Source: a bacterium
GTDB lineage: Bacteria > Bacillota_I > Bacilli_A > RF39 > UBA660
Direction of reading: 5' to 3'
Assembly: GCA_030539175.1 (NCBI GenBank)
Contig: JAUNSN010000002.1
Location: forward strand, 1-40,376
Length of the DNA: 40,376 nucleotides
Part shown: positions 1,834-33,704 of the stretch, one piece after another
Position numbering within the stretch: position 1 is the stretch's first letter
Layout: the number at the start of each line of letters is the position of its first letter
Notes under the pieces: model-generated
What the model was told of the DNA's origin: nothing
Seen by the model: the letters and a program-made list of their open reading frames with translations, nothing else
Database searches by the model: none
Made by a program: the position numbers and the translations under genes

Positions 1834-1845
1834 AGGAGTGAATTT

Positions 1846-4526: not shown

Positions 4527-4545
4527 GCAATAGGAGTGGATTATT

Positions 4546-7097: not shown

Positions 7098-7101
7098 GTT
7101 T

Positions 7102-10081: not shown

Positions 10082-10853
10082 TGAATTACCATTAATTACT
10101 GTAATTACAGTTACAAAAAATAGACCAAAATTATTAGAAAGAGCAATAAATACTGTTAAAAATCAAACTTACCCTAATATCAAACATTTTATAGTAATAG
10201 ACGATTGTCCTGAAACTTTAAGAATGTTGGAAAAAAAGTATAAAAATGATAAGAGTATTTTGTGGGAGTATCATAAAAGAGAAAAAACTGATAAAAGTGG
10301 ACCAAATATTCTATCAAAATTGAGAACTTATGCAATACATAAAGTTGGAGAAGGATGGTTTTCATTTTTAGATGATGATAATGAATTTTATTCAAATCAT
10401 TTAGAAGAACTATATTTGTTTGCAATAAAAGAAAAGTGTAGTGCAGTACACTCCAATAGAGAAGTTATGTATAAAGATGGAACTCCATATTTAAAACAAG
10501 AATGGCCATGGGGACGAACTTATGATAAAAAAATTGAAACATATAATAATATGTTAAAAGCTGGTGTAGTAGAAAAAGGAAGTAATATTTGGCATGACAA
10601 ATTTGGATTTACTGTTGATACGAACGTTTGGTTATTAAGAGCAGAATTGTTTTGTGATGTGAAAATACCAAGTGAATATTCAATTGATGATTATGAAGAG
10701 TGCCGTCCAGAAGATGAAAAAATGATGGAACTTTTAATTAAAAATAATGTTAAAGTTCTTTCAAATGATAAAGCAACAGTAAAATATTATTTAGGTGGAT
10801 ATTCTAATGAAAGTGAAGATCCAATTGAAGGAACTGTAAAATGGGAAAAATAG
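10074..10853 (+). CDS. GT2 family glycosyltransferase
   Basis: 259 residues from ATG 10074. A TTG at 10062 is in frame, but its only upstream ribosome site (AAGGA ending at 10060) would be far too close. LPLITVITVTKNRPKLLERAINTVKNQTYPNIKHFIVID is a canonical GT2 start, and WFSFLDDDNEFYSNHLEEL carries the DxD metal site. Residues about 125-200 contain a WPWGRTYD stretch and a Trp-rich acceptor region, and EECRPEDEKMMELL fits the ED motif with the catalytic base. Its DDDNE motif resembles that of the GT2 gene at 8211. It overlaps the genes on both sides by 8 and 13 bases. The donor and acceptor are unknown. Confidence 0.85.
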   Translation: MNNELPLITVITVTKNRPKLLERAINTVKNQTYPNIKHFIVIDDCPETLRMLEKKYKNDKSILWEYHKREKTDKSGPNILSKLRTYAIHKVGEGWFSFLDDDNEFYSNHLEELYLFAIKEKCSAVHSNREVMYKDGTPYLKQEWPWGRTYDKKIETYNNMLKAGVVEKGSNIWHDKFGFTVDTNVWLLRAELFCDVKIPSEYSIDDYEECRPEDEKMMELLIKNNVKVLSNDKATVKYYLGGYSNESEDPIEGTVKWEK

Positions 10854-12382
10854 CACAAGAAAATTTTGTGCCTAAAATTAGAGATTTCATTAATGATTAC
10901 AGTAATATAAAGTTAGATTACGAAAAAAGATTTAATGAGCCTATAAATAGTGATCCATATTTATCAATTAATTCTTTTCCTTTATCTTATTGCAAGTATA
11001 AAGTTAGTATAGTGATTTCTACATGGAACTCTGCAAATACTGTTTTATTCACATTACATTCAATAGAAAACACCTATATTTGTCAAAATTATTGTGATAA
11101 ATTAGAAGTAGTATTAGTTGATGATGGAAGTTCTGATAATACAGAAGAAATTATATTAAAAGAAAAATTTAAATTTAAATTATTATATATAAAACAAGAA
11201 CATATGGGTAGAGCTCAGGGTATTAATTTAGGGTGTAAATATGCTACTGGTGAAATGATTATATTTTGTGATTCTGATATAATATTATTTCCTTTTACTT
11301 TAGATGAAATTATAAAAAGACAGCAAGAATATTTAGATGAAACAATTTTTTTTGGATTTAGAGAAGATATAGAAAATGCTGAAAATATTAAGAATGTAAA
11401 AAAGTTTGTATTTCAAAAAACTCCGAATTTTTGGCTTGATAATAGATTCTCAACAGATTTTTCTGGAAGTTGGGGTACTAATATGATGGCTGAAACTCAT
11501 TTTTTACAAAACTTGCCATGTATTAAAAATTTTTGGGTAAGTAATAATATAATTAGTATGTATGATTGTTGGCAATTATATAGGATGGTATATGGATTTT
11601 TATTTGCTGTAAGTAAGAAAAATTTTAAAGAAGTTGGAGGATTTTCAGAATTTTTAATAGGATGGGGATGTGATGATACGTCTTTTGTATCTTTATGTAT
11701 TGAAAAAGGAATAAAAATTATACCAGTACCATCTGCTACTTGTTGTCATATAAAACATCCAATTAGAATGAAAACTCAATGGGAAGATGGAAAAAAGAAC
11801 GAAAAAAAGATGAATGATTATTTATCAAATAGTTTAAGAATTGATTATTATAATCAAGAACTTTCAAAAAGAATTATTAAAAGAGTAGAAATCAATCCAT
11901 TAAATAAAAAAGAAAAAACTATAAAAAAGTATAATATAATTTTTAAAACTTTATGCGAAGAGGCAAGATATAATTATTATTTGGGGAATTTTGAAAAGTC
12001 AAAATCCTTATATAATTCTATATTAAATACGCTTGATGTTAATGATTTAGAAAATTATTTTGATTGTTTAATTCACACTAATGATTATATTATATTTGAG
12101 AGCATTAATGACGATCGTAAATATTACTGTTTCTTCTATTATTTAGGAAAACTTTATTTTGATAATTTAATAATTGATTATGACTTTGAAATTAAAAGTA
12201 ATCATATTTATTATTTAAATAATATGAAAGTTGAAGAGCATATGAAACGTGCTAATCAATATTATGAAGAAAAACAATGGTATTTAGCATTAATGGATTT
12301 ATTTGCTTCTTATATGTTAACAAAAAACCAAAAAGTTTTATTAAAATGTTTAAATTGTATAAATATGCTAAAAAAAACATAG
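10841..12382 (+). CDS. GT2/GT7C-type glycosyltransferase with C-terminal helical repeats
   Basis: 513 residues. After about 45 residues a GT-A domain begins: YKVSIVISTWNSANTVLFTL, VVLVDDGSSDNTEEI, MGRAQGINLGCKYATGEMIIFCDSDI (DSD metal site). Residues about 250-300, FKEVGGFSEFLIGWGCDDTSF, match the C-terminal galactosyltransferase-like motif (GW/GxDD) of polypeptide GalNAc-transferase-like enzymes. The last 140 residues are helical and TPR-like (EARYNYYLGNFEKSKSLYNSI; ANQYYEEKQWYLALMDLFASY). This is the last gene of the operon, and its stop codon lies inside the 5' arm of a terminator. The helical tail parallels the GT at 8211 and may bind a polypeptide acceptor, which is inference. Confidence 0.8.
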   Translation: MGKIAQENFVPKIRDFINDYSNIKLDYEKRFNEPINSDPYLSINSFPLSYCKYKVSIVISTWNSANTVLFTLHSIENTYICQNYCDKLEVVLVDDGSSDNTEEIILKEKFKFKLLYIKQEHMGRAQGINLGCKYATGEMIIFCDSDIILFPFTLDEIIKRQQEYLDETIFFGFREDIENAENIKNVKKFVFQKTPNFWLDNRFSTDFSGSWGTNMMAETHFLQNLPCIKNFWVSNNIISMYDCWQLYRMVYGFLFAVSKKNFKEVGGFSEFLIGWGCDDTSFVSLCIEKGIKIIPVPSATCCHIKHPIRMKTQWEDGKKNEKKMNDYLSNSLRIDYYNQELSKRIIKRVEINPLNKKEKTIKKYNIIFKTLCEEARYNYYLGNFEKSKSLYNSILNTLDVNDLENYFDCLIHTNDYIIFESINDDRKYYCFFYYLGKLYFDNLIIDYDFEIKSNHIYYLNNMKVEEHMKRANQYYEEKQWYLALMDLFASYMLTKNQKVLLKCLNCINMLKKT

Positions 12383-18792: not shown

Positions 18793-19176
18793 GTGGAAAA
18801 AGTTTCAGTTTATTTAAGTGTCAAAAATAAAAATAGTGATTCTTTGCAAAGTAAAATACAATATATTAAAAATTGGTGTCTATTTAAAAATTATGACTGT
18901 GATTTCTATGTTGATAAAATAGAAAGTAGATTAGATTGTAAAAATAGAAATGATATGGATAGACTAAAAGAAAATATATTAAATAAAAAAGTTAATAAAG
19001 TTATAGTTCCAAATATAGAAAATATAGGAAGAAACAGTATATTTGTTCAAGAATTTTTATGTTTTTTAGATAAGCATGATTGTATCATTGAAAGTATTGA
19101 TGGTTCAAATCTAAATTTTCATAGGAACATAATAAATGAAATATTAAATAATTATAAGGAGGAAAGAGAAAGATGA
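18793..19176 (+). CDS. Degenerate serine-recombinase N-terminal domain protein
   Basis: 127 residues from GTG 18793 with AGGAGG 6 bases ahead. The fold pattern of the resolvase catalytic domain is present: VSVYLSVKNKNSDSLQSKIQYIKNWC fits the YxRVSTxxQ...Q start, NRNDMDRLKENI fits the NRPxxxxLL helix, and VNKVIVPNIENIGRNS fits the strand leading to DRLSRN. The catalytic Ser aligns with K11, the preceding Arg with S9, and DRLSRN has become ENIGRN. The DNA-binding recombinase domain is absent. It cannot be an active recombinase of the usual kind; a regulatory, dimerising or transfer-related role is possible. It overlaps the SSB gene by 4 bases. Confidence 0.65.
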   Translation: MEKVSVYLSVKNKNSDSLQSKIQYIKNWCLFKNYDCDFYVDKIESRLDCKNRNDMDRLKENILNKKVNKVIVPNIENIGRNSIFVQEFLCFLDKHDCIIESIDGSNLNFHRNIINEILNNYKEERER

Positions 19177-19571
19177 AAAATGAAAATGAAGTAAGAAACT
19201 CAACAAATAAATTTGAATTAGAAGGTAATGTAGCAAATATTAGAGATGTTTATGTAAATCAAAATGGAAAGAAAACTTTAAGATTTGATTTAGCACAAAA
19301 CAATAATGGTAATGCACAATTCGTTCCAATTGCATTAAAAGGAGAATTAGTAAATACTTACGAAAATGATATTAAGAAAGGTAATTGGTTATCAGTTAAA
19401 GGTAGAATATCTACTTACCAAAAAGATGTTGAAAGAGATGGAAAAACATATAAAGATAAAGTAATTGAAATACTTGGTTTTGAAATTACAGATAGAACTA
19501 ACAATAAAATTTATTCTTCTGATGGAGAAGTTCATGAAATAACAGTTAAACAAGAAGAAATGGAAAGATAG
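19173..19571 (+). CDS. Single-stranded DNA-binding protein-like (OB fold)
   Basis: 132 residues with AAGGAGGAAAG ahead of the ATG. FELEGNVANIRDVYVNQNGKKTLRFDLAQNNN fits the first SSB strands, FVPIALKGELVNTYENDIKKGNWLSVKGRISTYQKD matches the SSB core (VxxxGxxA+...GxxVxVxGRLxxRxxxD), and KVIEILGFEI is the last strand. The C-terminus (VKQEEMER) lacks the usual DDDIPF tip that recruits replication partners. Conjugative elements of Bacillota often carry such proteins to coat transferred DNA. It lies 2 bases before the next gene in what looks like one transcription unit. Confidence 0.7.
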   Translation: MKNENEVRNSTNKFELEGNVANIRDVYVNQNGKKTLRFDLAQNNNGNAQFVPIALKGELVNTYENDIKKGNWLSVKGRISTYQKDVERDGKTYKDKVIEILGFEITDRTNNKIYSSDGEVHEITVKQEEMER

Positions 19572-19573
19572 TT

Positions 19574-20263
19574 ATGAATAATGATAAAGAAATCAAAAAA
19601 GTAGTTTCTGAATTACAAGAACAATGTAATGATTTTTTATCATATATTGATTCATCTAATGAGTGTGCATATTCTGACAGAATGTTGGAAGATATAATAA
19701 AAAAAGGTAATTATCTATCTGAATTATATGAAATCAATTTTAGTAATAAAAAAATTAATAATAAATACGAATATGAAATTGATTATTATTGTAATGACAA
19801 TGATGATTTATATGTTGGATATTTTGTAACAAATAATGAAACAAGTAATAGAATTCAATGTATAGAATGTTATAATACATCAGATTTAAAATGTAATTAT
19901 AATAATTCTTCTCCAAGAGAAATTGAGATAGAACTTTTAGATATGATAAGTGAGAATAATGGCGAAGAATTTAATTTGCCAAAAATTAGTGGAGCAAGTC
20001 ATATATTAAAGTTTGTATTTGATTCAGTAAATCAAAGTGAGGCAAATATGTGCCATATAACAGATGAAGAATGGGAAGAATTAAAAGATGATGAAATCTT
20101 TATTGATTATGATATAAACATTTTAAAAAATGAAATCAAAGAATATGGATTAAGTGATTATATTACAATAGATTCAGATGGTTATAAAATATGTGGCTAT
20201 GGTGGTTTGCAAACTCGTTTTATAAATGATGAGAAAGGTAATGGTGATGAATTTGAAAGATGA
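19574..20263 (+). CDS. Hypothetical acidic protein
   Basis: 229 residues, strongly acidic, without signal peptide or TM. It contains several Cys, some in short pairs (RIQCIECYN, SDLKCNYN), a central SPREIEIELLDMISENNGEEF, and a C-terminal HITDEEWEELKDDEIFIDYDINILKNEI stretch. No family is recognised. It is linked to the SSB-like gene (2-base gap) and its 3' end overlaps the next gene by 17 bases, so it belongs to that operon. Its place between SSB and the mating-pore genes suggests an accessory function of the element; an acidic protein of this kind could be a DNA mimic or antirestriction factor, but nothing in the sequence proves this. Confidence 0.5.
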   Translation: MNNDKEIKKVVSELQEQCNDFLSYIDSSNECAYSDRMLEDIIKKGNYLSELYEINFSNKKINNKYEYEIDYYCNDNDDLYVGYFVTNNETSNRIQCIECYNTSDLKCNYNNSSPREIEIELLDMISENNGEEFNLPKISGASHILKFVFDSVNQSEANMCHITDEEWEELKDDEIFIDYDINILKNEIKEYGLSDYITIDSDGYKICGYGGLQTRFINDEKGNGDEFER

Positions 20264-20921
20264 AATAAAAAAAGGTCAAGCATTTATTGGATTAGATGAT
20301 AATAAATACTATTTTTTAGGATATGACTATGATGATCAAATTCTATTCACTAATCTTGATTTATGGACTGATAAGGAACAAAAATATATTGAAAAGTCCA
20401 ATATATTTATTAAAGAAATATTAGATGAAAAATCAGATATAATTGATAATTCAACTTGGTATTATCAATCTATGAAGGAATTAGAGAAATCAACCACTTA
20501 TGATAAGATTAAAAGGTGTTTAGATATTATTGCTAATGCTAATACTGATGATTTAGAGTTAAGACCAACAGATATTGGTCCACTTGTTAGAGGACAGGCA
20601 TATAGCAAAGATGTTAATCAATTTTATGAAGTAATTGGTTTTATAGTTGATAATAACATATATGTTGATAATGAATTAAAAGCGAAGCAAAAAGGTTTTT
20701 TTGCAATATATCATTCTAATTGTGATAGTGGAGTTCCATTGATATTTGAGAGAAATTTTACAGATAGAGATAACTCATTTGATGGAAAACATTTTATTGC
20801 AGGTAATAATGATAGAGTTGATATTGAAGATATAATTTTAAATAAAGAATTAGTTGATTCTTCTATGACTAGTTTATTAAATGACAGATTAGAAGAAAAA
20901 GAAAAAAATATGACAAAATAA
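20247..20921 (+). CDS. Hypothetical protein upstream of the mating-pore leader
   Basis: 224 residues from ATG 20247. Several in-frame starts precede it (20226, 20241), but AAAGG at 20234-20238 is spaced 8 bases only from this one, and it fits the overlap with the upstream gene. The N-terminus KKGQAFIGLDDNKYYFLGYDYDDQILFTNLDLW is beta-rich, the middle is helical, and a second beta-rich part reads YEVIGFIVDNNIYVDNELKAKQ. No signal peptide, TM or known motif is seen. Its TAA stop (20919-20921) lies one base before the first stem of the leader RNA, so ribosomes finishing this gene could affect folding of that leader. Confidence 0.5.
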   Translation: MNLKDEIKKGQAFIGLDDNKYYFLGYDYDDQILFTNLDLWTDKEQKYIEKSNIFIKEILDEKSDIIDNSTWYYQSMKELEKSTTYDKIKRCLDIIANANTDDLELRPTDIGPLVRGQAYSKDVNQFYEVIGFIVDNNIYVDNELKAKQKGFFAIYHSNCDSGVPLIFERNFTDRDNSFDGKHFIAGNNDRVDIEDIILNKELVDSSMTSLLNDRLEEKEKNMTK

Positions 20922-20922
20922 T

Positions 20923-21061
20923 AAATTGATGTAAGTTCTTTGAAAATTGAGTTAATAACTACACTTTTCTAGGTGTAATTATATATTTTTAGTTTATATC
21001 AATTTGTGGGACTGTGTAGTTATTAATCAGTTTGATTAGTAAGTACACAGTCTTTTTTTTT
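20923..21061 (+). ncRNA. Switch-like leader RNA with alternative antiterminator/terminator
   Basis: Three pairings can be read directly. P1: AAATTGATGTAA (20923-20934) pairs over 12 bases (one G-U) with TTATATCAATTT (20994-21005). Antiterminator: TTAATAACTACAC (20952-20964) is the exact complement of GTGTAGTTATTAA (21014-21026). Terminator: GACTGTGTA (21010-21018) pairs with TACACAGTC (21044-21052), extended inside by TTA/TAA and TAATC/GATTA, followed by nine T. The last two use the same bases and exclude each other. A small hairpin TACAC/GTGTA (20960-20964/20973-20977) could also hold the antiterminator strand. This fits a riboswitch-like or protein-controlled attenuator in front of the conjugation operon at 21089. 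The ligand is unknown. Confidence 0.7.
21010..21061 (+). terminator. Intrinsic terminator upstream of the mating-pore operon
   Basis: A 9-bp outer stem (21010-21018 with 21044-21052), an inner stem TAATC/GATTA around loop AGTTT, and a T-run at 21053-21061. It lies 28 bases before the pilin-like gene, so unless it is disrupted it would block transcription of the whole operon from upstream. Confidence 0.8.
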
Positions 21062-21088
21062 GCAATAATTTAAAGAAAGGGTGATATA

Positions 21089-21370
21089 ATGAAAAATTAT
21101 TTTAATGTATTAGCAATCTCTCAATTAGAGGGTGGAACATATACAATAGATACAGTTTTGAAAGTAATAAAACAAGTAACTGACTGGGCATTAGCTGTTG
21201 GTATTTCTCTTGCAGGTGTTGCTTTAGTTGTAAGTTTTATAATGTATGCAATAGTAGATGTAGATCAAAAGCCAAGAGTTAAAACTAGAATAGTACAGAC
21301 ACTATTAGGAATATTTGGTATCATTTTAGCAATTTCATTAGTTAATATAATTATTAGATTATTCACATAG
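21089..21370 (+). CDS. VirB2/TrbC-like pilin or small T4SS membrane protein
   Basis: 93 residues. After a short N-terminal part (MKNYFNVLAISQLEGGTYTIDTVLKVIKQ) there are two hydrophobic helices, about 32-57 (TDWALAVGISLAGVALVVSFIMYAIV) and 70-91 (VQTLLGIFGIILAISLVNIII), separated by a basic loop (QKPRVKTR). The size and topology match VirB2/TrbC-like subunits found first in Gram-positive conjugation operons. There is no classical signal peptide cleavage site. AAAGGGTGAT precedes the ATG and the switch-like leader lies directly upstream. The next gene follows immediately. Confidence 0.65.
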   Translation: MKNYFNVLAISQLEGGTYTIDTVLKVIKQVTDWALAVGISLAGVALVVSFIMYAIVDVDQKPRVKTRIVQTLLGIFGIILAISLVNIIIRLFT

Positions 21371-21379
21371 GTGTTTTTT

Positions 21380-22771
21380 ATGATGCTAAAAGTATTTGAT
21401 TTATTAAGAAATATTGGCTGGTATATTGTATCGTTTATATACGATCTAATTGATACATTATTAGATATAATAAAAAAACTAAATGCTTTTGATATTATAA
21501 ATTCTTTATCAGATAATCAAGTGTTTAGAAAGTTTTATACTGGTGCAATGGCAATAGCAGTTACTTTATTTGCATTATTTATTATTTGGAAGTTTGTTAA
21601 TAAATTACTTGATCCAGATGATGAAATAACAATTAAAAATATTGTTATGGAAACAGTAAAATGTGGTTTATTAATAATGCTTTCAACATTTTTATTTGTT
21701 CAAGTATCAAACTTTTCTATTACATTATCTAATTATACTGGAAATATATTTGAAAGTAATACTAAAGGAAATATGAGTAATAGTATGCTAACTATGTTTG
21801 TCAGTTATAAAGATGGATATAAAAATAGTGATAAATTTAGTGAATCAAAAACTGTAAAACAAGTAGTAGAGGATGGCTCTTTTGATAGTGATGAATTATA
21901 TTTAGCAAAATATGTAACAAAAGCAAAAATAATATTTGCAGATGATAAAGATTATAAATATGAAATAAATTGGATAATGGCAATTATATGTGGTGGATTC
22001 TTCTTGTATAGTTTATTCTTTGCTGGAATAATGCTAGGTAGAAGGCAAATAGAATTCTTATTTTTATTTACTATTGCTCCTATAGTATTTGCAACGAGTG
22101 TTTGTAATAAACAAAGACGAGGAGCAGTAATAGAACAATTAGTATCATTAGCATTACAAAGTGCAGTTGTTATGCTTATAGTAAGTTTAAGTGTTTTAGT
22201 AATGCAAGAAATAAATGCAACAACTTTCTTTACTGGCACTTTTCAAAATATTGTAACTAAAACATTATTATATTTAGGTTGTGCAACATTTATCATGACA
22301 GGTAGTCAAGTAATTAATCGTTTCATTGGTTCAAATGTTAGTGCAGCAAGTGGTAGAGAACAGTTAATGTCTTTAATGGGCTATGGAAAAATGGCTGGAA
22401 TTGGAGCAACAGTTGCTACTGGAGCAGCAGTAGGTGGAACTTTACTTGGTGCTGGTGTTGGAATGAAAGCAGGAAAAGCAGTTGCAACAGATGCAATGTC
22501 TAGAGTTGGAATGGCAATGGGAATGTATGGAATGGGTGATTCTGCATCAGGTGGTCAAACAAGTAGAATGCAAGATTTTGCCAAAGCAATGGGAACAAAA
22601 TTGCATACAACAAGCCAAAAATGGCAGAATAGAGAAACTGATCCTAATAAGTTTAGTGCAAGTGATGCCTTTATGAATGCAGGAGCAAATAGTATAAATA
22701 ATACTGTTAGAAAAGTTATGCCGAGAGCAAGTTATAATTCTTCTTATTATAGAAGAAAAAATATGATTTAG
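21380..22771 (+). CDS. VirB6/TrbL-like conjugation membrane protein
   Basis: 463 residues from ATG 21380 (AGGTG at 21369-21373, 6-base spacing); ATG 21383 is also possible. It has an N-terminal amphipathic part, TM helices near 50-70, 95-115, 195-225 and 245-275, and a further one near 290-310. A Gly/Ala-rich segment (MAGIGATVATGAAVGGTLLG) follows, then a polar tail. The 8-RRQIEFLFLFTIAPIVFA-like stretch and LVSLALQSAVVMLIVSLSVLVMQ are typical of TrbL/VirB6 proteins of Bacillota elements. The role is the inner-membrane part of the mating channel. It sits in the pilin-VirB6-PrgI-VirB4 order that is standard for these systems. Confidence 0.75.
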   Translation: MMLKVFDLLRNIGWYIVSFIYDLIDTLLDIIKKLNAFDIINSLSDNQVFRKFYTGAMAIAVTLFALFIIWKFVNKLLDPDDEITIKNIVMETVKCGLLIMLSTFLFVQVSNFSITLSNYTGNIFESNTKGNMSNSMLTMFVSYKDGYKNSDKFSESKTVKQVVEDGSFDSDELYLAKYVTKAKIIFADDKDYKYEINWIMAIICGGFFLYSLFFAGIMLGRRQIEFLFLFTIAPIVFATSVCNKQRRGAVIEQLVSLALQSAVVMLIVSLSVLVMQEINATTFFTGTFQNIVTKTLLYLGCATFIMTGSQVINRFIGSNVSAASGREQLMSLMGYGKMAGIGATVATGAAVGGTLLGAGVGMKAGKAVATDAMSRVGMAMGMYGMGDSASGGQTSRMQDFAKAMGTKLHTTSQKWQNRETDPNKFSASDAFMNAGANSINNTVRKVMPRASYNSSYYRRKNMI

Positions 22772-22782
22772 GAGGTGGTTAA

Positions 22783-23121
22783 ATGTATATAACATTAAAA
22801 ACTATAAAAAGAAATTTAGGATTTAAAGGTATTGAGGTATCTGATATTGTTATCGCCTTACCTTTAATCATTTTATTTATTATCTTGTTTGCATTTACAC
22901 CATTAAAAATATTTTCATTAGTATTACTAATGATTGGAATATTTTGTTTATTGCCTATTAATGTAAGTAAAAAAAATAGAATGTATAAAGTTTTAGTTCT
23001 AATTTTTAAATATATATTTAGAACTAAAATATATGTATATACAAATAAAAATATAGAGAAAGGAGAAGTAATTGATGAAGAAAAAATCAAAAGATTCAAC
23101 AATACAAAAAAAGCAACTTAA
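22783..23121 (+). CDS. PrgI/VirB3-like T4SS membrane protein
   Basis: 112 residues with AGGAGGTGG 5 bases before the ATG. A 20-residue N-terminal part is followed by one long hydrophobic region (about 23-60, split into two helices by a short TPLK break), then a conserved-looking cytoplasmic tail with KKNRMYKVLVLIFKYIFRTKIY. This architecture matches the PrgI family, the VirB3-like partner that directly precedes VirB4 in Gram-positive T4SS operons. The 3' end overlaps the VirB4 gene by 47 bases, as is common for this pair. Confidence 0.75.
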   Translation: MYITLKTIKRNLGFKGIEVSDIVIALPLIILFIILFAFTPLKIFSLVLLMIGIFCLLPINVSKKNRMYKVLVLIFKYIFRTKIYVYTNKNIEKGEVIDEEKIKRFNNTKKAT

Positions 23122-25597
23122 AGAAAGAAATATAATTGAAAAGTTTGTTTCTAAAAAATCAAAGAATAAAAATTGTAATAAGTATATAACAAAATCAATT
23201 ATGAAAAGAAAATTTAAAAATAGTAAAATGTTTACAAATGTTGAAAGTGTTGATGATAAAGGTATAATAAAATTAAGAACTGGAGAATATGCAATTATAT
23301 ATTCAGTTGATGCTATAGATTTGTCTTTATCTTCTAATAATCAAAAAAACAATTTCTTTAATCAATTAAAGTATTTATATCAGTTAAAAGATTTAAATTT
23401 AAGAATATACAAATTAGATGATAAAATTGATTTAAATGCTAATAAAGATTATTATAATTCACTTATTGAAAGATTTAAGAATGATGCAGATAAAGTGAGT
23501 TTTTTGGAAGAAAGAATAATAAAGTTTGATTTATTAGAAGAAAGAAAACTTACTACAACCAGTAGATATTATTTTGTTATAACAAGTAATAATGATAAAG
23601 CACTTATTCATATTGCTGAAGAAGTAGAAATACAATGTTATAATATGACACCTAGATTAAATATAAAAAGAATATTAAATAAATTAGAGATATATCAATT
23701 TTTAGTTAATTTATATTTAAGTAGTGCAAGTATAGAACAATTAATGTGGAGTGATTTAGTAGAACTAGTCAGTCCATTTTTTGTTAGTGAAAATATGAAT
23801 TGTTTGAAAGTAGATAATGATGAAGTACAAATTGTAACTGTGAAAAAAATACCACCATTCATTGATGAATTGTTTTTTGAAGAATTGTTTAATGTTCCAG
23901 AAACTAGATGTTGTATTCATGTGAAAGATACAATTCCAACTGAAGAATTAATAAGAAGGTTGGACAATAATTATGAGTTTTTATTATCTGAAAGAATTAC
24001 AACCAGAAAATTAAGTGATGCAACAGAAATGGAAACTGAAAAAGAAAATTTTCAAGCACTCATGAATCAAATTAAACATGGTGATGAAAAAATCAAAGAA
24101 GTAGATTTAATTATAGTTGTAAATGGTAATAGGGTGGAAAGAGAAAATAAAGTTAAGGAATTAAAACAAATAGCAGATGCTTATCACATAAAACTGGAAG
24201 TTCCTAGATTAAGACAAATGGAGGCATGGCAATCATTTGATATTAAGAGTGAAGGCTTTGATGATTATCATCAATATATGCCTAGTCTTACTTTATCAGC
24301 ATCATTTCCATTAACTATAACTCATTTTAATGATAGAACAGGTTATATGCTAGGAACTGATATTCATACAGCTTTACCTACAATATTTGATATGTTCTAT
24401 AAAGATTCATCTCGTCCATCAAGTAATTTAGCGATTATTGCATCAACTGGAGGAGGAAAGAGTTTTACATTAAAGAAATTGATTATTAATGAAATAAATC
24501 GTGGAAATAAAATATTTATTTTTGATGCAGAAGGTGAATATAAAAAACTAGTTAAAAAAAACAAGGGAGAATATATTGATTTATATTCATCTAGTGGTGG
24601 AATTATTAATCCATTACAAGTAAGGTTTTTACCTAGTGATGATGAAGAAAAAAAAGATGACGCTATTGATAAAATTAATTATGAAGAATGTCCACTTGCA
24701 AAACATTTAGGATCGTTAGAAACATTTTTAAAATGTACTTTTGAAGAAATAACTGAAAGTGAAATAGTAGTTCTTCTTAATATGATTGAAAGTTTATATA
24801 AAAGATTTGGTATATCAAAAAATACTAAAATATCAAATTTAGAAAAATTAGAAAATACTGATTATCCAATTTTCTCTGATTTGATAGAATTCTTGCCTGA
24901 TTATAGAAATATGATTACTAATCAAGAGCAATTAAAAATTGTTGATAAACTTGAAGTTCTTTTAGACAGATTTAAGGTAGGAACTGATGCTATGTTATTC
25001 AATGGCTATACATCAGTAAACCTTGATGCTAATTTAATTGCATTTAATATAAAGGATTTATTGTATTCTAAAAATAAAAGAATAATAACAGCACAGTTAA
25101 TCAATTTACTTACTTATTTAAATAATATAATTGTCAAAAATAAAATATTAAACGAAAAACAATTAAGTAAAATCCCTAATCAATTTACTTCTATTATTGC
25201 TGATGAATTTCATCTATATTTAAAAAATACAGATAGTGAAGTAATGCTTTCATTTGAACAGATAAGTCGCAGGTGCAGAAAATATTTTTGTAATTTTATA
25301 GCGTCAACTCAAAGCATACACGATTTTCTTGGTGATGATGAATCTGTAAGAAGTGCAACTGCAATATTTAATAATTGTCAATATCAATTAGTTGGAATGT
25401 TAAAAGAAAATGATTTACAAACATATCTAAAATTGTTTTATGAGAATCCACTTACTGACACGCAAAAAGAGTTTTTAATGAAAGCAGAGCAAGGACAATT
25501 CTTATTAACTGTGAATAATAAAATAAGAATAAGAGAACAAATTATAGCATCACCTTTAGAAGCTGAATTAATGGGAGAAAGTAAAAATGATAAATAA
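23075..25597 (+). CDS. VirB4-like T4SS ATPase
   Basis: 840 residues from ATG 23075 (AGGAG at 23061-23065). The N-terminal half is the non-catalytic VirB4 domain (a CagE/TrbE-like region). Walker A is ASTGGGKS at 456-463, preceded by NLAII. The HTALPTIFDMFYKDSSRPSS lead-in is also typical. Walker B is SIIADEFHLYL near 704, followed by SRRCRKYFCNFIASTQSIHDFL (the conserved RKY and Gln motif of VirB4). This is the energy source of the mating pore, membrane-associated in the cytoplasm. It overlaps PrgI upstream and the small gene at 25587 downstream. Confidence 0.92.
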   Translation: MKKKSKDSTIQKKQLKERNIIEKFVSKKSKNKNCNKYITKSIMKRKFKNSKMFTNVESVDDKGIIKLRTGEYAIIYSVDAIDLSLSSNNQKNNFFNQLKYLYQLKDLNLRIYKLDDKIDLNANKDYYNSLIERFKNDADKVSFLEERIIKFDLLEERKLTTTSRYYFVITSNNDKALIHIAEEVEIQCYNMTPRLNIKRILNKLEIYQFLVNLYLSSASIEQLMWSDLVELVSPFFVSENMNCLKVDNDEVQIVTVKKIPPFIDELFFEELFNVPETRCCIHVKDTIPTEELIRRLDNNYEFLLSERITTRKLSDATEMETEKENFQALMNQIKHGDEKIKEVDLIIVVNGNRVERENKVKELKQIADAYHIKLEVPRLRQMEAWQSFDIKSEGFDDYHQYMPSLTLSASFPLTITHFNDRTGYMLGTDIHTALPTIFDMFYKDSSRPSSNLAIIASTGGGKSFTLKKLIINEINRGNKIFIFDAEGEYKKLVKKNKGEYIDLYSSSGGIINPLQVRFLPSDDEEKKDDAIDKINYEECPLAKHLGSLETFLKCTFEEITESEIVVLLNMIESLYKRFGISKNTKISNLEKLENTDYPIFSDLIEFLPDYRNMITNQEQLKIVDKLEVLLDRFKVGTDAMLFNGYTSVNLDANLIAFNIKDLLYSKNKRIITAQLINLLTYLNNIIVKNKILNEKQLSKIPNQFTSIIADEFHLYLKNTDSEVMLSFEQISRRCRKYFCNFIASTQSIHDFLGDDESVRSATAIFNNCQYQLVGMLKENDLQTYLKLFYENPLTDTQKEFLMKAEQGQFLLTVNNKIRIREQIIASPLEAELMGESKNDK

Positions 25598-25772
25598 TAT
25601 TTCAACAGAACAATTAAGAGAGGTTTTCAAAAAGATTTATATAGAAGAATTTGAAGATCCCAATGAATCGTTTATGGATTTTTTATTAGATTTAATATCA
25701 CGAAATGATTTAATAAAAGTTTTGAAAAAGGGAAATAGATACTATTATTCTATCTTTAAAAAATACAAATGA
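25587..25772 (+). CDS. Small conserved-context protein after VirB4
   Basis: 61 residues, acidic N-terminal two thirds and basic C-terminus. INNISTEQLREVFKKIYIEEF is helical, MDFLLDLISRNDLIKVLKKGNRYYYSIFKKYK ends the protein. GGGAG lies ahead of the ATG, which overlaps the VirB4 gene by 11 bases, and its stop overlaps the M23 gene by 4. No TM or known motif. Translational coupling on both sides suggests it is real and serves the mating-pore complex, but the function is unknown. Confidence 0.55.
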   Translation: MINNISTEQLREVFKKIYIEEFEDPNESFMDFLLDLISRNDLIKVLKKGNRYYYSIFKKYK

Positions 25773-26686
25773 GTAAGAAAAAAAAGAATATATTTATAAA
25801 GATAATTGGTGGTAGTACAATACTTACTATTGCTTGTGGTATGATAATACTAATATGTGTTTTAATGATTTTTGATTTTTTTGGTGGTAAACTTACTAAA
25901 GATAAAATACAAAATAATACAGAATATGCAGATGAATATTTAAGAGTAGTTAATTTAAATCTTAAAAATGGGTATGTTCCACTACAAAGATTATTATATT
26001 TTAGTTTAGAAGATAATAGTTTAACATTTGATACATTATATACAATGAATCAAGATATAGAGATGAAAACTGCTAAAGGAATAAATTCAGTTTGTATTGA
26101 TGAAAGAGTTAAAAATATGGGTGCTTGTAGCGCTGATACTCTTAAAGAAAATGAAGAATATTTAGTAGTAAGTTCAGGTCATTTTAATTTCCCTCTAGAT
26201 ACTAGTAATTATACAGTTACTAGTTTTTTTAATGAGGAGAGAATAATTTATGGTGAAAATAATATTCATAATGGATGGGATTTAGCAACATCTGCTCAAA
26301 CACCAGTTTACTCAGTATGTAGTGGAACTGTATATAAAGTTAATTATACTCAAAGTGAAAATATTCCTTATGATCAAAGTGGTAATAGTAAGGGCAATAC
26401 AATAACAATAAGATGTGATGAAGATTATAATGATATTTATTATGTTGTTTTTGCTCACCTTTATCCAAATAGTGCGAAAGTAAAAGCAGGAGATAAAGTT
26501 GGTCATTGGACACAGATAGCAAGTGTAGGAACAACAGGAACATCTACTGGTAATCATTTGCACTATCAAGTACAAGATGCAAATTGGCAATTATTAGATG
26601 GAATGCAATTTATAGATTTTAAATCAACTAGAACACCTAGCAATGAATTTAATCAATTTAATGGAGAAGCACCTTTTAAAAGATAG
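25769..26686 (+). CDS. Membrane-anchored M23-type peptidoglycan hydrolase of the T4SS
   Basis: 305 residues. A Lys-rich N-terminus and one TM helix (about 10-36) anchor it with the rest outside. Residues 50-135 form an unrecognised exported region. Residues 155-275 are a lysostaphin-type (LytM/M23) domain with H167 and D171 (HNGWD), H230 (FAHLYPNS) and H263/H265 (GNHLHYQ), the usual zinc ligands and catalytic residues. It would cut cross-bridges in the wall so the mating channel can pass. Many related operons use VirB1-like or NlpC/CHAP enzymes in this place; here only M23 is seen. It overlaps the small gene upstream (ATGA) and closes the pore operon. Confidence 0.88.
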   Translation: MSKKKKNIFIKIIGGSTILTIACGMIILICVLMIFDFFGGKLTKDKIQNNTEYADEYLRVVNLNLKNGYVPLQRLLYFSLEDNSLTFDTLYTMNQDIEMKTAKGINSVCIDERVKNMGACSADTLKENEEYLVVSSGHFNFPLDTSNYTVTSFFNEERIIYGENNIHNGWDLATSAQTPVYSVCSGTVYKVNYTQSENIPYDQSGNSKGNTITIRCDEDYNDIYYVVFAHLYPNSAKVKAGDKVGHWTQIASVGTTGTSTGNHLHYQVQDANWQLLDGMQFIDFKSTRTPSNEFNQFNGEAPFKR

Positions 26687-27591: not shown

Positions 27592-27901
27592 AGTAGATGA
27601 CTACATTTATGATAGATTATTTTTAGTAGCAAAAGATAATAAAACTACCACTAATAAAGTGATAGGTACTATTCTAAAAAAATATATAGATGAACCAAAA
27701 GAAATAAATTATTTAAAGGAACTTGATAATAAGTTGAAAAATATTGATTACAAGTTAGACAATATATCTAAAAAACAATATTTTCATTTTAAAGTTTCTT
27801 CTCAACATTTTGCAAATCATGGATATTTATCAAATGCAGAAGTTAAAGATGATAAATGCTTAAATGAAATTATGAATGTTAGGGATAAATTCAATGAGTA
27901 A
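27572..27901 (+). CDS. MobC-like mobilisation protein with RHH N-terminus
   Basis: 109 residues. The N-terminal 45 residues (KKLTVRVDDYIYDRLFLVAKDNKTTTNKVIGTILKKYI) fit a ribbon-helix-helix domain, followed by a helical connector (EINYLKELDNKLKNIDYKLDNISKKQ) and a C-terminal part FHFKVSSQHFANHGYLSNAEV. RHH plus helix is the usual layout of MobC-like proteins encoded just before a MobA relaxase, where they help melt oriT. It overlaps the previous gene by 20 bases and the relaxase gene by 8. Confidence 0.65.
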   Translation: MKKLTVRVDDYIYDRLFLVAKDNKTTTNKVIGTILKKYIDEPKEINYLKELDNKLKNIDYKLDNISKKQYFHFKVSSQHFANHGYLSNAEVKDDKCLNEIMNVRDKFNE

Positions 27902-29240
27902 AAAAAGTCCTAATGTAATTTTTAAAAGTAAATATTGTCTTGCTTTATCATCAGTTGATAATAAAAATAATTCATATAATTATAAAAATGATCGATTAAA
28001 AGATATAGATGATATGATAGATTATTTTTCTGATGAGAAGAAAAAACTTGTAGGAATGTTTGAATATTATATGGGACATACAAGAAAAGAAGATGTCAAT
28101 TTGGTTTTAGCAGATGGAAGTTATGCAACAAAAGATGATGTAAAAAAATTAAAAAAAGATTATAAAAAATATATTGAAAAGTCTAATTTATGGAAAGGTA
28201 TTTTAAGTTTTAATCCAGAATATTTAGAAAACAATATTTCAATAAAAACACTGGAACAAAAAATAGCAAAAGAAGTAATGCCACAGTTTTTAAAGTATTG
28301 TGGTTTTAAAGATATTAAAAAAATGAGTTATGTGTTTTCCATTCATACAAATAAAAAACACCCTCATATACATTTTGCATTTATAGAAAAAACTCCTAAC
28401 TATTTATATTGTGATAAAAAAGTTAATTATAGAAGAAAAGGTAAAATCACATTAGATGAGCAAAGATACTTAAAAAGGTTAGTTGAGTTAGTAATTGAAA
28501 GAGAAAAATATTATACTCCATTATTAAAAAGGACAAATGAAGATATTGATTATTTAAAAACTTATTTTGATCCTAAAGAAAAAAACTTTGCACTTAAAAA
28601 TATAGATGATATATATACTGAAGAACAAATATTAAAATTAGGAGATTTATTAAAAAAATATAGAAATATTAATAATCAATCTTCAAAAAAGATAAAATAC
28701 AATTCAATTAAAAATAGCGAATTAGGTAAGGAGATAAAATATTTAACCAAAGAAATTAAAAAATCTTTATTTAAGGATGATTCTTCTATATTAAATATAA
28801 GTAGAAAAGATATAAATAAGGATTTATCAAAATTAAACGATTACTTTGATTTATTAAATGAGAAAAATAATATCCAAGATGAAAGATTAAATAATAGTAT
28901 TGTTCAAAAAAAAGAAGAATATATTGATAATTATATTTATAATGCAATAGTTAATCATTCTTTATATAAATATGAAAAAGTTTATATGACAGTTAAAAAT
29001 AGAAATAACTCTAATATCACATTAGATGATTTAATACAGGAAATAGCATGTGAGCATAATGAAAAGATAAATAATTCAACTGAAAGAAGAAAAAGAGTGT
29101 TGGATAACTATTTTAAAGGAACTAATAATAATTTAAAGTTTCCAAATAAGTATAAAATGGAAAAAGCATTGAAAAATATAAATTATGAAATGGAGAAAGC
29201 ATCACAAGAATTCAGTAGGCTTTTTGATTATAATAAGTGA
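27894..29240 (+). CDS. MobA-type relaxase
   Basis: 448 residues from ATG 27894 (AGGGA at 27881-27885, 8-base spacing); an ATG at 27876 is in frame but has no good site. The histidine triad is H151, H156, H158 and H160 in SIHTNKKHPHIHFAF, matching motif III (HxDxxxxHxH) of MOB relaxases, although the usual Asp is Asn here. Candidate nucleophile Tyr residues lie near the N-terminus (KSKYCLAL). The rest is helical, with a long basic C-terminal part. It would nick oriT and stay bound to the 5' end for transfer through the coupling protein at 37128. The exact MOB class is uncertain. Confidence 0.8.
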   Translation: MSKKSPNVIFKSKYCLALSSVDNKNNSYNYKNDRLKDIDDMIDYFSDEKKKLVGMFEYYMGHTRKEDVNLVLADGSYATKDDVKKLKKDYKKYIEKSNLWKGILSFNPEYLENNISIKTLEQKIAKEVMPQFLKYCGFKDIKKMSYVFSIHTNKKHPHIHFAFIEKTPNYLYCDKKVNYRRKGKITLDEQRYLKRLVELVIEREKYYTPLLKRTNEDIDYLKTYFDPKEKNFALKNIDDIYTEEQILKLGDLLKKYRNINNQSSKKIKYNSIKNSELGKEIKYLTKEIKKSLFKDDSSILNISRKDINKDLSKLNDYFDLLNEKNNIQDERLNNSIVQKKEEYIDNYIYNAIVNHSLYKYEKVYMTVKNRNNSNITLDDLIQEIACEHNEKINNSTERRKRVLDNYFKGTNNNLKFPNKYKMEKALKNINYEMEKASQEFSRLFDYNK

Positions 29241-29272: not shown

Positions 29273-29301
29273 TTGACAATTCAAGTCTTTGATGTTAAAA
29301 T
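29273..29301 (+). promoter_or_regulatory. Consensus promoter TTGACA-17-TAAAAT
   Basis: TTGACA at 29273-29278, a 17-base spacer, then TAAAAT at 29296-29301 with TG extension. A second TTGACA lies at 29262-29267. It drives the AMP-binding gene independently of the relaxase operon. Confidence 0.75.
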
Positions 29302-29327
29302 ATGTCGTAATTATTGGAGGTGCAGTT

Positions 29328-31172
29328 ATGCAAAATGATGATATAAAAAATCTTCATATATATGATGCAGCAAAAGACACTAGAAAAAAAGTTCTTGTTG
29401 GTAAACCATCAATTGATAAACCATGGTTGAAATATTATACTCAAGAACAAAAAGATACAGATATGCCTAAAATGAGTACATATCAATATTTATACGATTG
29501 TAATAAAAAGTATTTAGGTAGAACTGCTTTAAATTATTTTGGGAAGAAAATTACTTTTCAAGAATTATTTGAAAATATTGATAAGACAGCAAGAGCATTT
29601 AAGGCTATGGGAGTAAAAGAAAATGATATTGTAACTATTTCATTACCTAATATTCCTGAAGCTGTATATATGTTTTATGCACTTAGCAAAATAGGTGCCA
29701 TAGCGAATATGGTTGATCCTAGAACTAGTGATAAAGGTATAGAAGGATATGTCAGAGAAGTTAATTCTGATTTATTAGTAATAATTGATTCGTATTATAA
29801 TAAAGTAAAGAAATTAAGTGAAAATGGTGTTGTTGATAATATTATCACTGTTTCTCCAGCAGATTCATTACCATTTGGAATAAATTTAGGCTATAAAGCA
29901 AAAGAATTCATTGAATCAATGAAAGATCCAATGAAAAAAAATCATTTTAATGACTCAACAATTAACTGGACTGAATTTATTAAACAGGGAAATAGTTACA
30001 GTGGAAAAGTTGAGGCTGATTATATTCCTAATCGTCCAGTAGTAATTGAACATACTGGTGGAACAACTGGTAAACCTAAAGGGGTTATGCTTTCAAACGA
30101 AAATATAAATGCAGTTGCATTACAAAGTGTTCTTACTGGAATAGATATGAAAAGAGAACATAACTGGTTGGATATTATGCCACCATTTATAGCATATGGT
30201 GTTGGTATGGGATTACATTTACCATTAACAATTGGAATGGAAACAATATTAATTCCACAGTTTGATGCAAAGAAATTCGATGAATTATTATTAAAGCATA
30301 AACCAATTCATATGGTTGGTGTTCCTTCATACTGGGGTACTATTATAAATAGTAAAAAGTTAGCAAAAAAAGATTTATCATATATGATTGCTCCAACTGT
30401 TGGTGGAGATGCTATGGATACAACATTAGAACAAGAATCAAATGAATTCTTAAAAGAACATAATTGTACATCAAAAATTACAAAAGGCTATGGAATGACA
30501 GAGGTAACTGGTGGTGTCGCTGGTACAGGAACTCTTGATGAGAATAATTTAGTTGGAAGTGTGGGAATTCCATTTGTTAAAACAACAATATCAATTTTTG
30601 ATCCAGAAACGAGTGAAGAATTGGGTTATAATCAAAATGGAGAAGTTTGTATCACTGGTCCAAATACTATGCTAGGATATTATAATAATGATGAGGCAAC
30701 TAGTGATATGTTGAAAAAACATAGTGATGGACAAGTTTGGGTTCATTCTGGAGATATAGGATATATGACTGAAGATGGTAATTTGTTTATTGTTGATAGA
30801 TTGAAAAGAATGATTATTCGTTATGATGGATTCAAAGTTTTTCCATCTATGATAGAGAATGTAATATCTTCACATAATGCAGTAGAATCTTGCAAAGTTG
30901 TTGGAATACCTGATGATGAACATAGCCAAGGAAAATTACCAAAGGCTCATGTTGTTCTAAAAGATGAATATAAGTTCAATTCTGAAATAGTACAAAGAGA
31001 ATTAGAAGAATTATGCTCTGAAAAATTACCAGAATATTCACAACCAGTTGCATATAAAATGAGAAATTGTTTACCACTAACTAGTGTAGGCAAGATTGAC
31101 TTCTTATCTTTAGAAGCAGAAGATTTACAAGAACAAGGAAAATCAAGGGTTTTATCTAAAAAACTAATATAA
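29328..31172 (+). CDS. Acyl-CoA synthetase-like AMP-binding enzyme
   Basis: 614 residues from ATG 29328; GGAGGTG at 29316-29322 is ideally spaced, while the upstream in-frame starts overlap the promoter. ANL superfamily motifs appear in order: TGGTTGKPKG (243-252, ATP-phosphate loop), GYGMTE (387-392), SGDIGYM and RLKRMIIRYDGFKVFP (hinge and A8), and LTSVGKIDF near the C-terminus with the A10 Lys. It should activate a carboxylic acid as acyl-AMP and pass it to CoA or a carrier; no carrier gene is near. It has its own promoter and terminator, so it is a self-contained cargo unit between the relaxase and coupling-protein genes. Substrate unknown. Confidence 0.85.
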   Translation: MQNDDIKNLHIYDAAKDTRKKVLVGKPSIDKPWLKYYTQEQKDTDMPKMSTYQYLYDCNKKYLGRTALNYFGKKITFQELFENIDKTARAFKAMGVKENDIVTISLPNIPEAVYMFYALSKIGAIANMVDPRTSDKGIEGYVREVNSDLLVIIDSYYNKVKKLSENGVVDNIITVSPADSLPFGINLGYKAKEFIESMKDPMKKNHFNDSTINWTEFIKQGNSYSGKVEADYIPNRPVVIEHTGGTTGKPKGVMLSNENINAVALQSVLTGIDMKREHNWLDIMPPFIAYGVGMGLHLPLTIGMETILIPQFDAKKFDELLLKHKPIHMVGVPSYWGTIINSKKLAKKDLSYMIAPTVGGDAMDTTLEQESNEFLKEHNCTSKITKGYGMTEVTGGVAGTGTLDENNLVGSVGIPFVKTTISIFDPETSEELGYNQNGEVCITGPNTMLGYYNNDEATSDMLKKHSDGQVWVHSGDIGYMTEDGNLFIVDRLKRMIIRYDGFKVFPSMIENVISSHNAVESCKVVGIPDDEHSQGKLPKAHVVLKDEYKFNSEIVQRELEELCSEKLPEYSQPVAYKMRNCLPLTSVGKIDFLSLEAEDLQEQGKSRVLSKKLI

Positions 31173-31178
31173 AACAAT

Positions 31179-31212
31179 AACTGATTGACAAATAGTTAGT
31201 CAGTTTTTTTTA
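31179..31212 (+). terminator. Rho-independent terminator
   Basis: AACTGA (31179-31184) pairs with TCAGTT (31200-31205), with an inner stem TGAC/GTTA, followed by a T-run. It lies just after the AMP-binding gene. Confidence 0.8.
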
Positions 31213-31249
31213 TATATTTACTGCTAGTCTATTAATTTTTATAAAATAG

Positions 31250-31260
31250 TATGATATAAT
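31250..31260 (+). promoter_or_regulatory. Extended -10 promoter TATGATATAAT
   Basis: Perfect TATAAT at 31255-31260 with TG extension, 38 bases before the histidine kinase ATG. The -35 is weak. The 11-mer is identical to those at 12914 and 29244. Confidence 0.6.
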
Positions 31261-31298
31261 TAGAAAAATAGTGAGATAGTGGTGTTGGAGGTATAACT

Positions 31299-33704
31299 AT
31301 GCAAATAGGAATGTCAGTTATAGGATGTAGTTTAGTTTATTTGATTTTATTAGCTATTGTATATTTTTCAAAAGATAGAATAAAGACAATAGAAACAAAA
31401 CTTTATGATATATTATTAGTTTCAAATATATTAGGTTTAGTATTAGAATTATTATGTTGTTTTACTGTGTCAATGAAAGAAAATATACCTGTAATGAATG
31501 AAATAGTAAATAGATTATATTTAGTATATTTTGTTTTCTTTGTTACAATGTTTACAATTTATGTTTATTTTGCATCTTTTCAAAAGAATAAAGAAAAGGT
31601 ATCAAATTTATTAGAAAAACATAGTGCCTTTAGAATAGTAGTTGGGACATTCTTCGGAATATGTATTTCGTTTGTTTTGTTTTTACCTTTAAAATATCAT
31701 TATTCTACTAATTCTGTATATTCGTATGGTCCAGCGACAGAGTTTTTGTATATATTATGTGGAATTTATATGATAGTTGATTTATATTGTTTGATTAAAA
31801 ATTATAAAGAAATAAAAACAAAGAAAAACATTCCATTATTTGCTCTTTTAATATGTTTTGCAATTGCTTTCGTTATTAGAACGATTAATCCAAGCATTAT
31901 TTTAATAACATCATCATTTGCATTAGTTACTGCAATAATGTATTTTACAATTGAAAATCCAGATGTTAAAATAATTAATCAGTTAGAACTTGCAAAAGAT
32001 TTAGCTGAAAAGGCAAACAATGCAAAAAGTGATTTTTTATCAAGTATGTCTCATGAAATAAGAACTCCACTTAATGCAATTGTAGGATTATCAGAAGATA
32101 TTTCTACATATAAAGAGCAGGTTCCAAAAGAAGTTGTTGAGGACTCTGAAGATATACAGAGTGCATCACAAACACTTTTAGAAATTGTTGGTAATATACT
32201 TGATGTTAACAAAATTGAATCAGGTAAGTTAGATATTGTTTTAAATCCATATAATTTTAGTGAAGAAATAAGTAAAATGGTAAAAATAACAGCAATGAGA
32301 ATTGGTGAAAAACCTATTGATTTTAAATTGAATATTGCAGAAGATATACCATATGAATTAATTGGAGATAAGGTTCATATAAAAGAAATAATAAATAATA
32401 TTTTGACAAATGCTATTAAATATACTGAAAAAGGTAATATAAATTTATCAGTTAAGTGTGTTAATGATGTTGAGAAAGGAATATCTAATCTGATTATTTC
32501 TTGCCAAGATACTGGTAGAGGAATTAAACCTGAATATATAAATAAACTATTTACAAAATTTGAAAGGTTAGATATTGAAAAAAATACTACAACTGAAGGA
32601 ACTGGGTTAGGTCTTGCTATTACTAAATCTCTTGTTGATATGATGGGTGGAAAAATCAATGTAAAATCTCAATTTGGTAGTGGTTCAATCTTTATGATTA
32701 CAATTCCTCAAAAAATAAGTAAAATGACAAAACCAATGACTAATAAAGAACAAGTAAACAATGTTACAAAACTATATTCAAAAAATAATAATTCTAATTT
32801 AAGCAATAATATTTATAATAATAAATCTATTTTAATAGTAGATGATAATAAATTAAATATTAAAGTAGCAAAAAGAGCAATTCAACCATTACAATTTTCT
32901 AAAATTGATGAGTGTTATAATGGTCAGGAATGTTTAGATAAAATAGTTTCAGGAGAAAAATATGATCTTATTTTGATGGATATAATGATGCCAGTAATGA
33001 GTGGTAATTCTGCTATAAAAAAATTAAAAGAAATAGAAGGATTTAATACTCCAGTTCTTGCAGTAACTGCTGATGCTGTAGCAGGAGCAGAAGAAAAATA
33101 TAAATCAGATGGATTTATTGATTATATATCAAAACCATTTTCTCAAGATACTATCAAATCAATGATTGACAAAATATTTTCTATAAATAAAAATGAAGTA
33201 AAAAATGAAGAAGATAGATGGAAAGATGTAACTCCATATATTTATGGAAATGAAAACATTGAACTACCAGAACTTAATACAAAAACAACTACAAATATTG
33301 ATGAAAAAAATGTAGAGACACTAGAAGAAATTGAAATTAGTAATAAAAATAATATAGAATTTTTGAAATCAAATAATATAAATGTAGATCATGGTTTGGA
33401 TTTGCTTGGTGATATTGATATGTATAACGAAACAATAAACCTTTTCTATGATGGAATAAAGGAAAGAATATCTAATTTGCAAAAATATAAAAAAGAAAAT
33501 GATATGAATAATTATGCTATAGAAGTACATGCTTTAAAAAGCGATTGTAAATATTTGGGAATACTAGAATTAGCTGATTTGTCATATCAACATGAGTTAA
33601 AGAGTAAAGAAAATGATTCTAATTTCGTTAATGCTCATTTTAAAGAGTTAATGACTGAAATTGTTAGAGTTGCTACTGTAATAAAAGATTATGTTGGTAA
33701 ATAG
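31299..33704 (+). CDS. Hybrid histidine kinase with receiver and HPt domains
   Basis: 801 residues with TTGGAGGT ahead of the ATG. Residues 1-220 contain about seven TM helices and no large extracellular sensor. HisKA follows with H252 in SSMSHEIRTPLNAI. The ATPase domain has N371 (NNILTNAIKY), DTGRG (404-408) and GTGLGLA (434-440). A linker leads to a receiver with D516/D517 (VDDN), phospho-acceptor D561 (LMDIMMPVMSG) and K612 (ISKP). The C-terminal HPt domain has H744 in VHALKSD. So a full His-Asp-His relay is in one protein, but no output regulator is encoded nearby. It has its own promoter and terminator. The signal is likely detected through the membrane helices. Confidence 0.92.
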   Translation: MQIGMSVIGCSLVYLILLAIVYFSKDRIKTIETKLYDILLVSNILGLVLELLCCFTVSMKENIPVMNEIVNRLYLVYFVFFVTMFTIYVYFASFQKNKEKVSNLLEKHSAFRIVVGTFFGICISFVLFLPLKYHYSTNSVYSYGPATEFLYILCGIYMIVDLYCLIKNYKEIKTKKNIPLFALLICFAIAFVIRTINPSIILITSSFALVTAIMYFTIENPDVKIINQLELAKDLAEKANNAKSDFLSSMSHEIRTPLNAIVGLSEDISTYKEQVPKEVVEDSEDIQSASQTLLEIVGNILDVNKIESGKLDIVLNPYNFSEEISKMVKITAMRIGEKPIDFKLNIAEDIPYELIGDKVHIKEIINNILTNAIKYTEKGNINLSVKCVNDVEKGISNLIISCQDTGRGIKPEYINKLFTKFERLDIEKNTTTEGTGLGLAITKSLVDMMGGKINVKSQFGSGSIFMITIPQKISKMTKPMTNKEQVNNVTKLYSKNNNSNLSNNIYNNKSILIVDDNKLNIKVAKRAIQPLQFSKIDECYNGQECLDKIVSGEKYDLILMDIMMPVMSGNSAIKKLKEIEGFNTPVLAVTADAVAGAEEKYKSDGFIDYISKPFSQDTIKSMIDKIFSINKNEVKNEEDRWKDVTPYIYGNENIELPELNTKTTTNIDEKNVETLEEIEISNKNNIEFLKSNNINVDHGLDLLGDIDMYNETINLFYDGIKERISNLQKYKKENDMNNYAIEVHALKSDCKYLGILELADLSYQHELKSKENDSNFVNAHFKELMTEIVRVATVIKDYVGK

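Follow-up and report, generated by a model that had tools for sequence, protein, structure and literature searches.

A putative boxA-keyed transcription attenuator ahead of the mating-pore genes of an integrative/conjugative-type element

A leader RNA carrying boxA was found between the DNA-processing genes and the mating-pore genes in the transfer operon of an integrative/conjugative-type element, and with moderate confidence we regard it as a transcription attenuator keyed to this site. The window, which is the whole stretch of 40,376 nucleotides that was analysed, contains this leader directly 5' of the pilin/VirB6/VirB4 operon (21089..25597, + strand), and the genes upstream of the leader (19173..20921, + strand) are closely spaced or overlapping (Table 1). 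An on/off attenuator had been proposed here in an earlier note made from the sequence, and this layout is supported; the terminator and the antiterminator are retained in every full-leader homologue. The three complementarities described in that note are all present where it had placed them, and the leader was observed to fold at -46.9 kcal/mol compared with -22.8 +/- 3.4 kcal/mol for shuffles (z = -7.1). boxA, the best-conserved part of the leader and, with its NusB-S10 complex, the likely input acting in trans, is absent from the earlier description.

Table 1. Coordinates of the leader elements and neighbouring genes in the window
Feature	Position	Strand	Basis or remark
SSB-like gene	19173-19571	+	Pfam PF00436
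Unknown gene	19574-20263	+	no Pfam family
Unknown gene	20226-20921	+	no Pfam family; stop codon ends at 20921
P1	20923..21005	+	20923-20934 with 20994-21005, one G-U; window-specific OFF-state stem
boxA GTTCTTTGAAAA	20935..20946	+	predicted NusB-S10 binding site in the transcript; exact copy of host 16S boxA
Antiterminator strand	20950..20964	+	pairs with 21014-21028; pairing retained in homologues, beats shuffles
Local hairpin P3	20960..20977	+	20960-20966 with 20971-20977; from fold; in the OFF fold, part of the antiterminator strand is tied up here
Intrinsic terminator	21008..21061	+	arms 21008-21029 and 21033-21054, T-run 21053-21061; -25.4 kcal/mol
Shine-Dalgarno-like AAAGAAAGGG of pilin gene	21072..21081	+	from sequence; conserved in homologues
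Pilin, T4SS-pilin-like	21089-21370	+	PF18895, below its cut-off
VirB6-like	21371-22771	+	position and size only
Small membrane protein	22783-23121	+	
VirB4-like ATPase	23072-25597	+	DUF87/TraG matches
M23 peptidase	25769-26686	+	Pfam
Relaxase	27876-29240	+	Pfam

Other genes were also noticed around the transfer functions. An AMP-binding acyl ligase gene (Pfam) and a hybrid-sensor-kinase-like gene (by sequence) occupy window positions 29289-33704, between the relaxase gene and the coupling-protein gene (37128-39098), and are possibly cargo or a matter of assembly. Adjoining the transfer region, positions 175-12382 hold glycosyltransferase-like, polysaccharide-deacetylase-like and radical-SAM-like genes, assigned by sequence.

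Homologous leaders were collected in two ways. A DNA search located the leader in genomes G367 and G007 at 77-78% identity, and a pilin-based search of genome contigs gave 21 loci, 20 of them with usable leaders; from matching sequence, L038 is taken as the G367 locus and L037 as the G007 locus. Nine leaders are full, with boxA, antiterminator strand and terminator (the window, L036, L037, L038, L039, L041, L042, L048 and L049), and as L041 and L042 are nearly identical, they represent eight distinct full leaders.

Both the identity and the conservation of boxA are established. Its first 11 bases, GTTCTTTGAAA, are invariant in all nine full leaders and form the longest invariant run among them (permutation p < 5e-5). 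Three exact copies of the 12-mer GTTCTTTGAAAA are present in the 1.29 Mb genome (reversed control 0), and as one of them lies upstream of 16S rRNA, the leader boxA matches the organism's own rrn boxA; its context reads GTTCTTTGAAAATTGAGT in the window and GTTCTTTGAAAACTGAGT in the host rrn leader. Furthermore, a TCTTTGAAA core was observed upstream of 16S in 149 of 291 family genomes (reversed control 0), at roughly 50-80 nt from the 16S start motif. From established knowledge of rrn leaders, we take this element to be boxA, the NusB-S10 site. The consensus known from gamma-proteobacteria is GYTCTTTAANA (PMC5725501). A reading of the leader site as a -35 box (TTGAAA) was rejected as there is no -10 hexamer at suitable spacing.

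The third copy of GTTCTTTGAAAA (L033; G000:C34:76-87, minus strand) is located close to the end of a contig, behind a terminator-like hairpin. In genome G390 a matching site (L062; L132 around 4320) precedes an Rfam pemK RNA (RF02913) and a PemK-like gene by about 120 nt; an integrase-like gene lies further along, and boxA may therefore mark a second kind of mobile-element leader. Related genomes contain other exact boxA 11-mers; most of these fall within coding frames, and they were treated as chance.

The terminator and the helix that competes with it are likewise established. The terminator is the strongest terminator-like site within the window, with a helix of 21 pairs followed by T9; the earlier note had recognised 21010-21018/21044-21052 and the T-run, which are present, but the true extent is longer (21008-21029 with 21033-21054). 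Among homologues, 95.8% of the cells in the terminator pairing were found to be paired. The T-run lies about 27 nt from the pilin ATG and sequence inspection reveals no apparent promoter in between, and therefore the pilin operon appears to need read-through.

The antiterminator strand is complementary to the 5' arm of this terminator. Its pairing (20952-20964 with 21014-21026) is an exact reverse complement, as had been claimed, and extends to 20951/21027 with one G-U. We observed 14-15 of the 15 pairs in all eight distinct full leaders, and the complementarity exceeds that of dinucleotide shuffles of the leader (p <= 0.001, Watson-Crick). All changes in the antiterminator strand are A<->G opposite U except for one unpaired end position in the window, and on the terminator side there is one mismatch in L048 while the remaining changes keep the pair through G-U. 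As no pair was changed on both sides and column shuffles score as well, the evidence for this helix is retained pairing, not covariation.

Hairpin P3 forms 5-7 pairs in six homologues and is lost in L048 and L049. Since these two leaders keep the antiterminator without P3, the terminator arm seems to be the partner under selection. The 5' arm of P1 abuts boxA and starts one base after the preceding stop codon. P1 exists with one G-U as the earlier note had described, and its complementarity is above chance in the window (p about 0.003, shuffles), but it was rejected as a family feature because it is conserved in no relative; in its place, boxA itself is paired with the leader middle in four relatives. 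A comparison of homologous leaders for covariation, which the earlier note had proposed as a check, thus finds the terminator and the antiterminator conserved, the latter with no both-side changes, but not P1.

Folding was restricted to nested structures, and a pseudoknot could let both helices coexist. When the 3' terminator arm is left out, all eight leaders favour the antiterminator fold over the alternative, by 6-23 kcal/mol, and blocking boxA adds 0.1-7 kcal/mol to this advantage. In the fold that has no antiterminator, pairing takes up 11-12 of the 12 boxA bases in L036, L037, L038 and L041, compared with 8 of 12 in the window. A direct duplex of boxA with the leader middle is significant only in the same four leaders; in the window, L039, L048 and L049 it is not significant. 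The terminator state is equally or more stable in full-length folds, which indicates that timing decides.

We tentatively propose that the conjugative element has recruited ribosomal boxA from its host to serve as the input to an RNA switch, where NusB-S10 availability, and perhaps with it ribosome synthesis or the growth state, would open the intrinsic terminator and license mating-pore synthesis in hosts that are mostly without Rho. In the attenuator reading itself, which we hold with moderate confidence, RNA polymerase coming from the upstream genes would transcribe boxA at the outset. As long as this site is left unbound, boxA or its flank would pair with the leader middle and P3 would hold part of the antiterminator strand; the 5' arm of the terminator would then remain free and transcription would end before the pilin gene. 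With NusB-S10 (together with NusA/NusG) on boxA, this OFF stem would be weakened, the antiterminator strand would take the 5' terminator arm and the polymerase would read through. A polymerase modified through boxA may also withstand further stops along the long operon. We infer here the binding of NusB-S10 to boxA, the direction of its effect, the read-through and the physiological signal, which is perhaps growth rate or free NusB-S10.

A NusB gene is present in the host (PF01029, E = 5.5e-33). Only one gene of the NusG family was found in the genome, which is 96% complete, and so the host appears to have no NusG paralogue; a LoaP or other specialised NusG system was rejected since the second NusG-family gene is missing. 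Rho was not detected in this 96% complete genome, although rrn boxA is widespread in the family, and full-length Rho was found in three of 20 related hosts. It counts against our reading that Rho is the main target of the rrn boxA complexes characterised so far; as Rho was not found in the host, boxA in this leader would have to affect either folding or intrinsic termination.

As the simplest rival, boxA alone could bring about processive antitermination by loading an rrn-like complex that pushes the polymerase past the terminator, with the alternative pairing being secondary. This would suit a leader in which boxA is conserved above every other part, as well as L047, where boxA occurs with neither terminator nor pairing partner, and there is precedent for processive antitermination in Gram-positive conjugation operons in conAn and canT (PMC8955417, PMC11658703). 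However, the antiterminator strand is kept in eight homologues with almost only pair-compatible changes, and no second terminator of comparable strength was seen in the window's transfer operon. We consider this rival unlikely, though it deserves more weight than those that follow.

A plain insulating terminator between two transcription units, with the other pairings being repeat-derived relics and boxA incidental, is somewhat less probable again. Relatives with the terminator alone do exist, as a terminator-like hairpin without boxA was observed in L040, L043, L044, L056, L045, L050 and L054. The earlier note had named such homologues beforehand as speaking against its switch, and they do so in part, while the full leaders keep the antiterminator. 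Against mere insulation stand the 11-base boxA core, which is invariant while the remaining leader drifts, and the apparent need of the pilin operon for read-through.

L046, L051, L052 and L055 have neither boxA nor terminator. The boxA-keyed switch would thus be dispensable, as some related elements have the terminator alone or neither part. Full leaders occur scattered across a VirB6 tree, in which one clade of terminator-only leaders clusters with full-leader rows and deep support is weak; this is consistent with the full leader being an old feature that was lost in some lineages. An RNA model (R1) run over 386 family genomes gave matches only in the window's genome and in G007. Plasmids gave no match by blastn with the leader or tblastn with VirB6, and no match was found in viral contigs.

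The window's genome holds a second pilin gene of this family (L122; G000:C25:28543-28812), and the 320 bases before it contain no boxA at up to one mismatch. Elsewhere in the bacterial family, a different leader was noticed at the pilin operons L101, L103, L105-L110, L114, L123 and L128, where GCAAAGAA...TTCTTTGC and a T-run surround inner hairpins. Three pairs of its outer stem are changed on both sides, and it has no Rfam match (searched with L101, L106 and L109).

A metabolite or ion riboswitch of unknown class is very improbable. The two alternative folds and the strong structure would agree with it, but a search of Rfam 15 with the leader at gathering and lax thresholds gave chance-level matches only, with no known riboswitch or cis-regulatory RNA over its gathering score, and the earlier note had likewise recognised no known class. 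Outside boxA, antiterminator and terminator, the homologous leaders drift in sequence and have indels, and since L048 and L049 also lack P3, no conserved ligand pocket was seen. Least credible is the translation-sensed switch that the earlier note had suggested, through a short leader peptide starting ATGTTCTTTGAA, because this start, present in six of the eight distinct full leaders and in L047, reads AAG for ATG in the window and L038, has no Shine-Dalgarno-like sequence before it, opens peptides of widely differing length of which none is conserved, and is invariant at every codon position, unlike coding constraint. In L048 (2866-3000) the frame starting ATGTTCTTTGAA is open across the whole leader, which is probably chance as L049 has a stop.

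Our analysis suggests a mobile element that controls the reading of its transfer genes by way of the cell's rRNA transcription machinery. If this is true, mobile elements can couple conjugation to that machinery, and the leader would provide a compact system for testing boxA action in Bacilli without Rho. The best-known cases of boxA/Nus antitermination are those of rRNA operons and lambdoid phages, and in most descriptions its target is Rho. In those parts of the literature that our search covered, no boxA-bearing attenuator before a Gram-positive conjugation operon was found.

Among antitermination systems of conjugation operons, conAn of pLS20, which consists of the ConAn1 protein and conAn2 RNA, resembles the present case in acting at a Gram-positive conjugation operon (PMC8955417). 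However, conAn is located at the operon start, whereas the present element is mid-operon and uses a host site; the start of the pLS20 operon has no forward-strand boxA within one mismatch, and our leader is not evidently a conAn. canT of Tn916 is similarly a cis-acting RNA antitermination element in an ICE, but it is a 452 bp element near one end, and the text of its report mentions neither boxA nor NusB (PMC11658703). Antitermination by LoaP and related NusG paralogues also modifies the host polymerase in Bacillota (PMC12691694), but the present host has a single NusG-family gene.

Among boxA systems, sites in non-rRNA leaders are known from suhB and from predicted gamma-proteobacterial leaders (PMC5725501). 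The suhB leader is alike in placing boxA before a protein-coding gene, but suhB is lowered through translation and Rho, whereas here an intrinsic terminator and an antiterminator adjoin boxA (PMC5725501). There is also a likeness in the components to E. coli rrn antitermination, where boxA is bound by NusB/NusE (PMC5725501, PMC4807359): our leader has the boxA letters of the host's own rrn leader, a NusB gene in the host and a long operon downstream. The two differ in that the E. coli system has Rho as its main target, which was not found in the present host, and in that boxA here lies within a terminator/antiterminator leader of a protein-coding conjugation operon.
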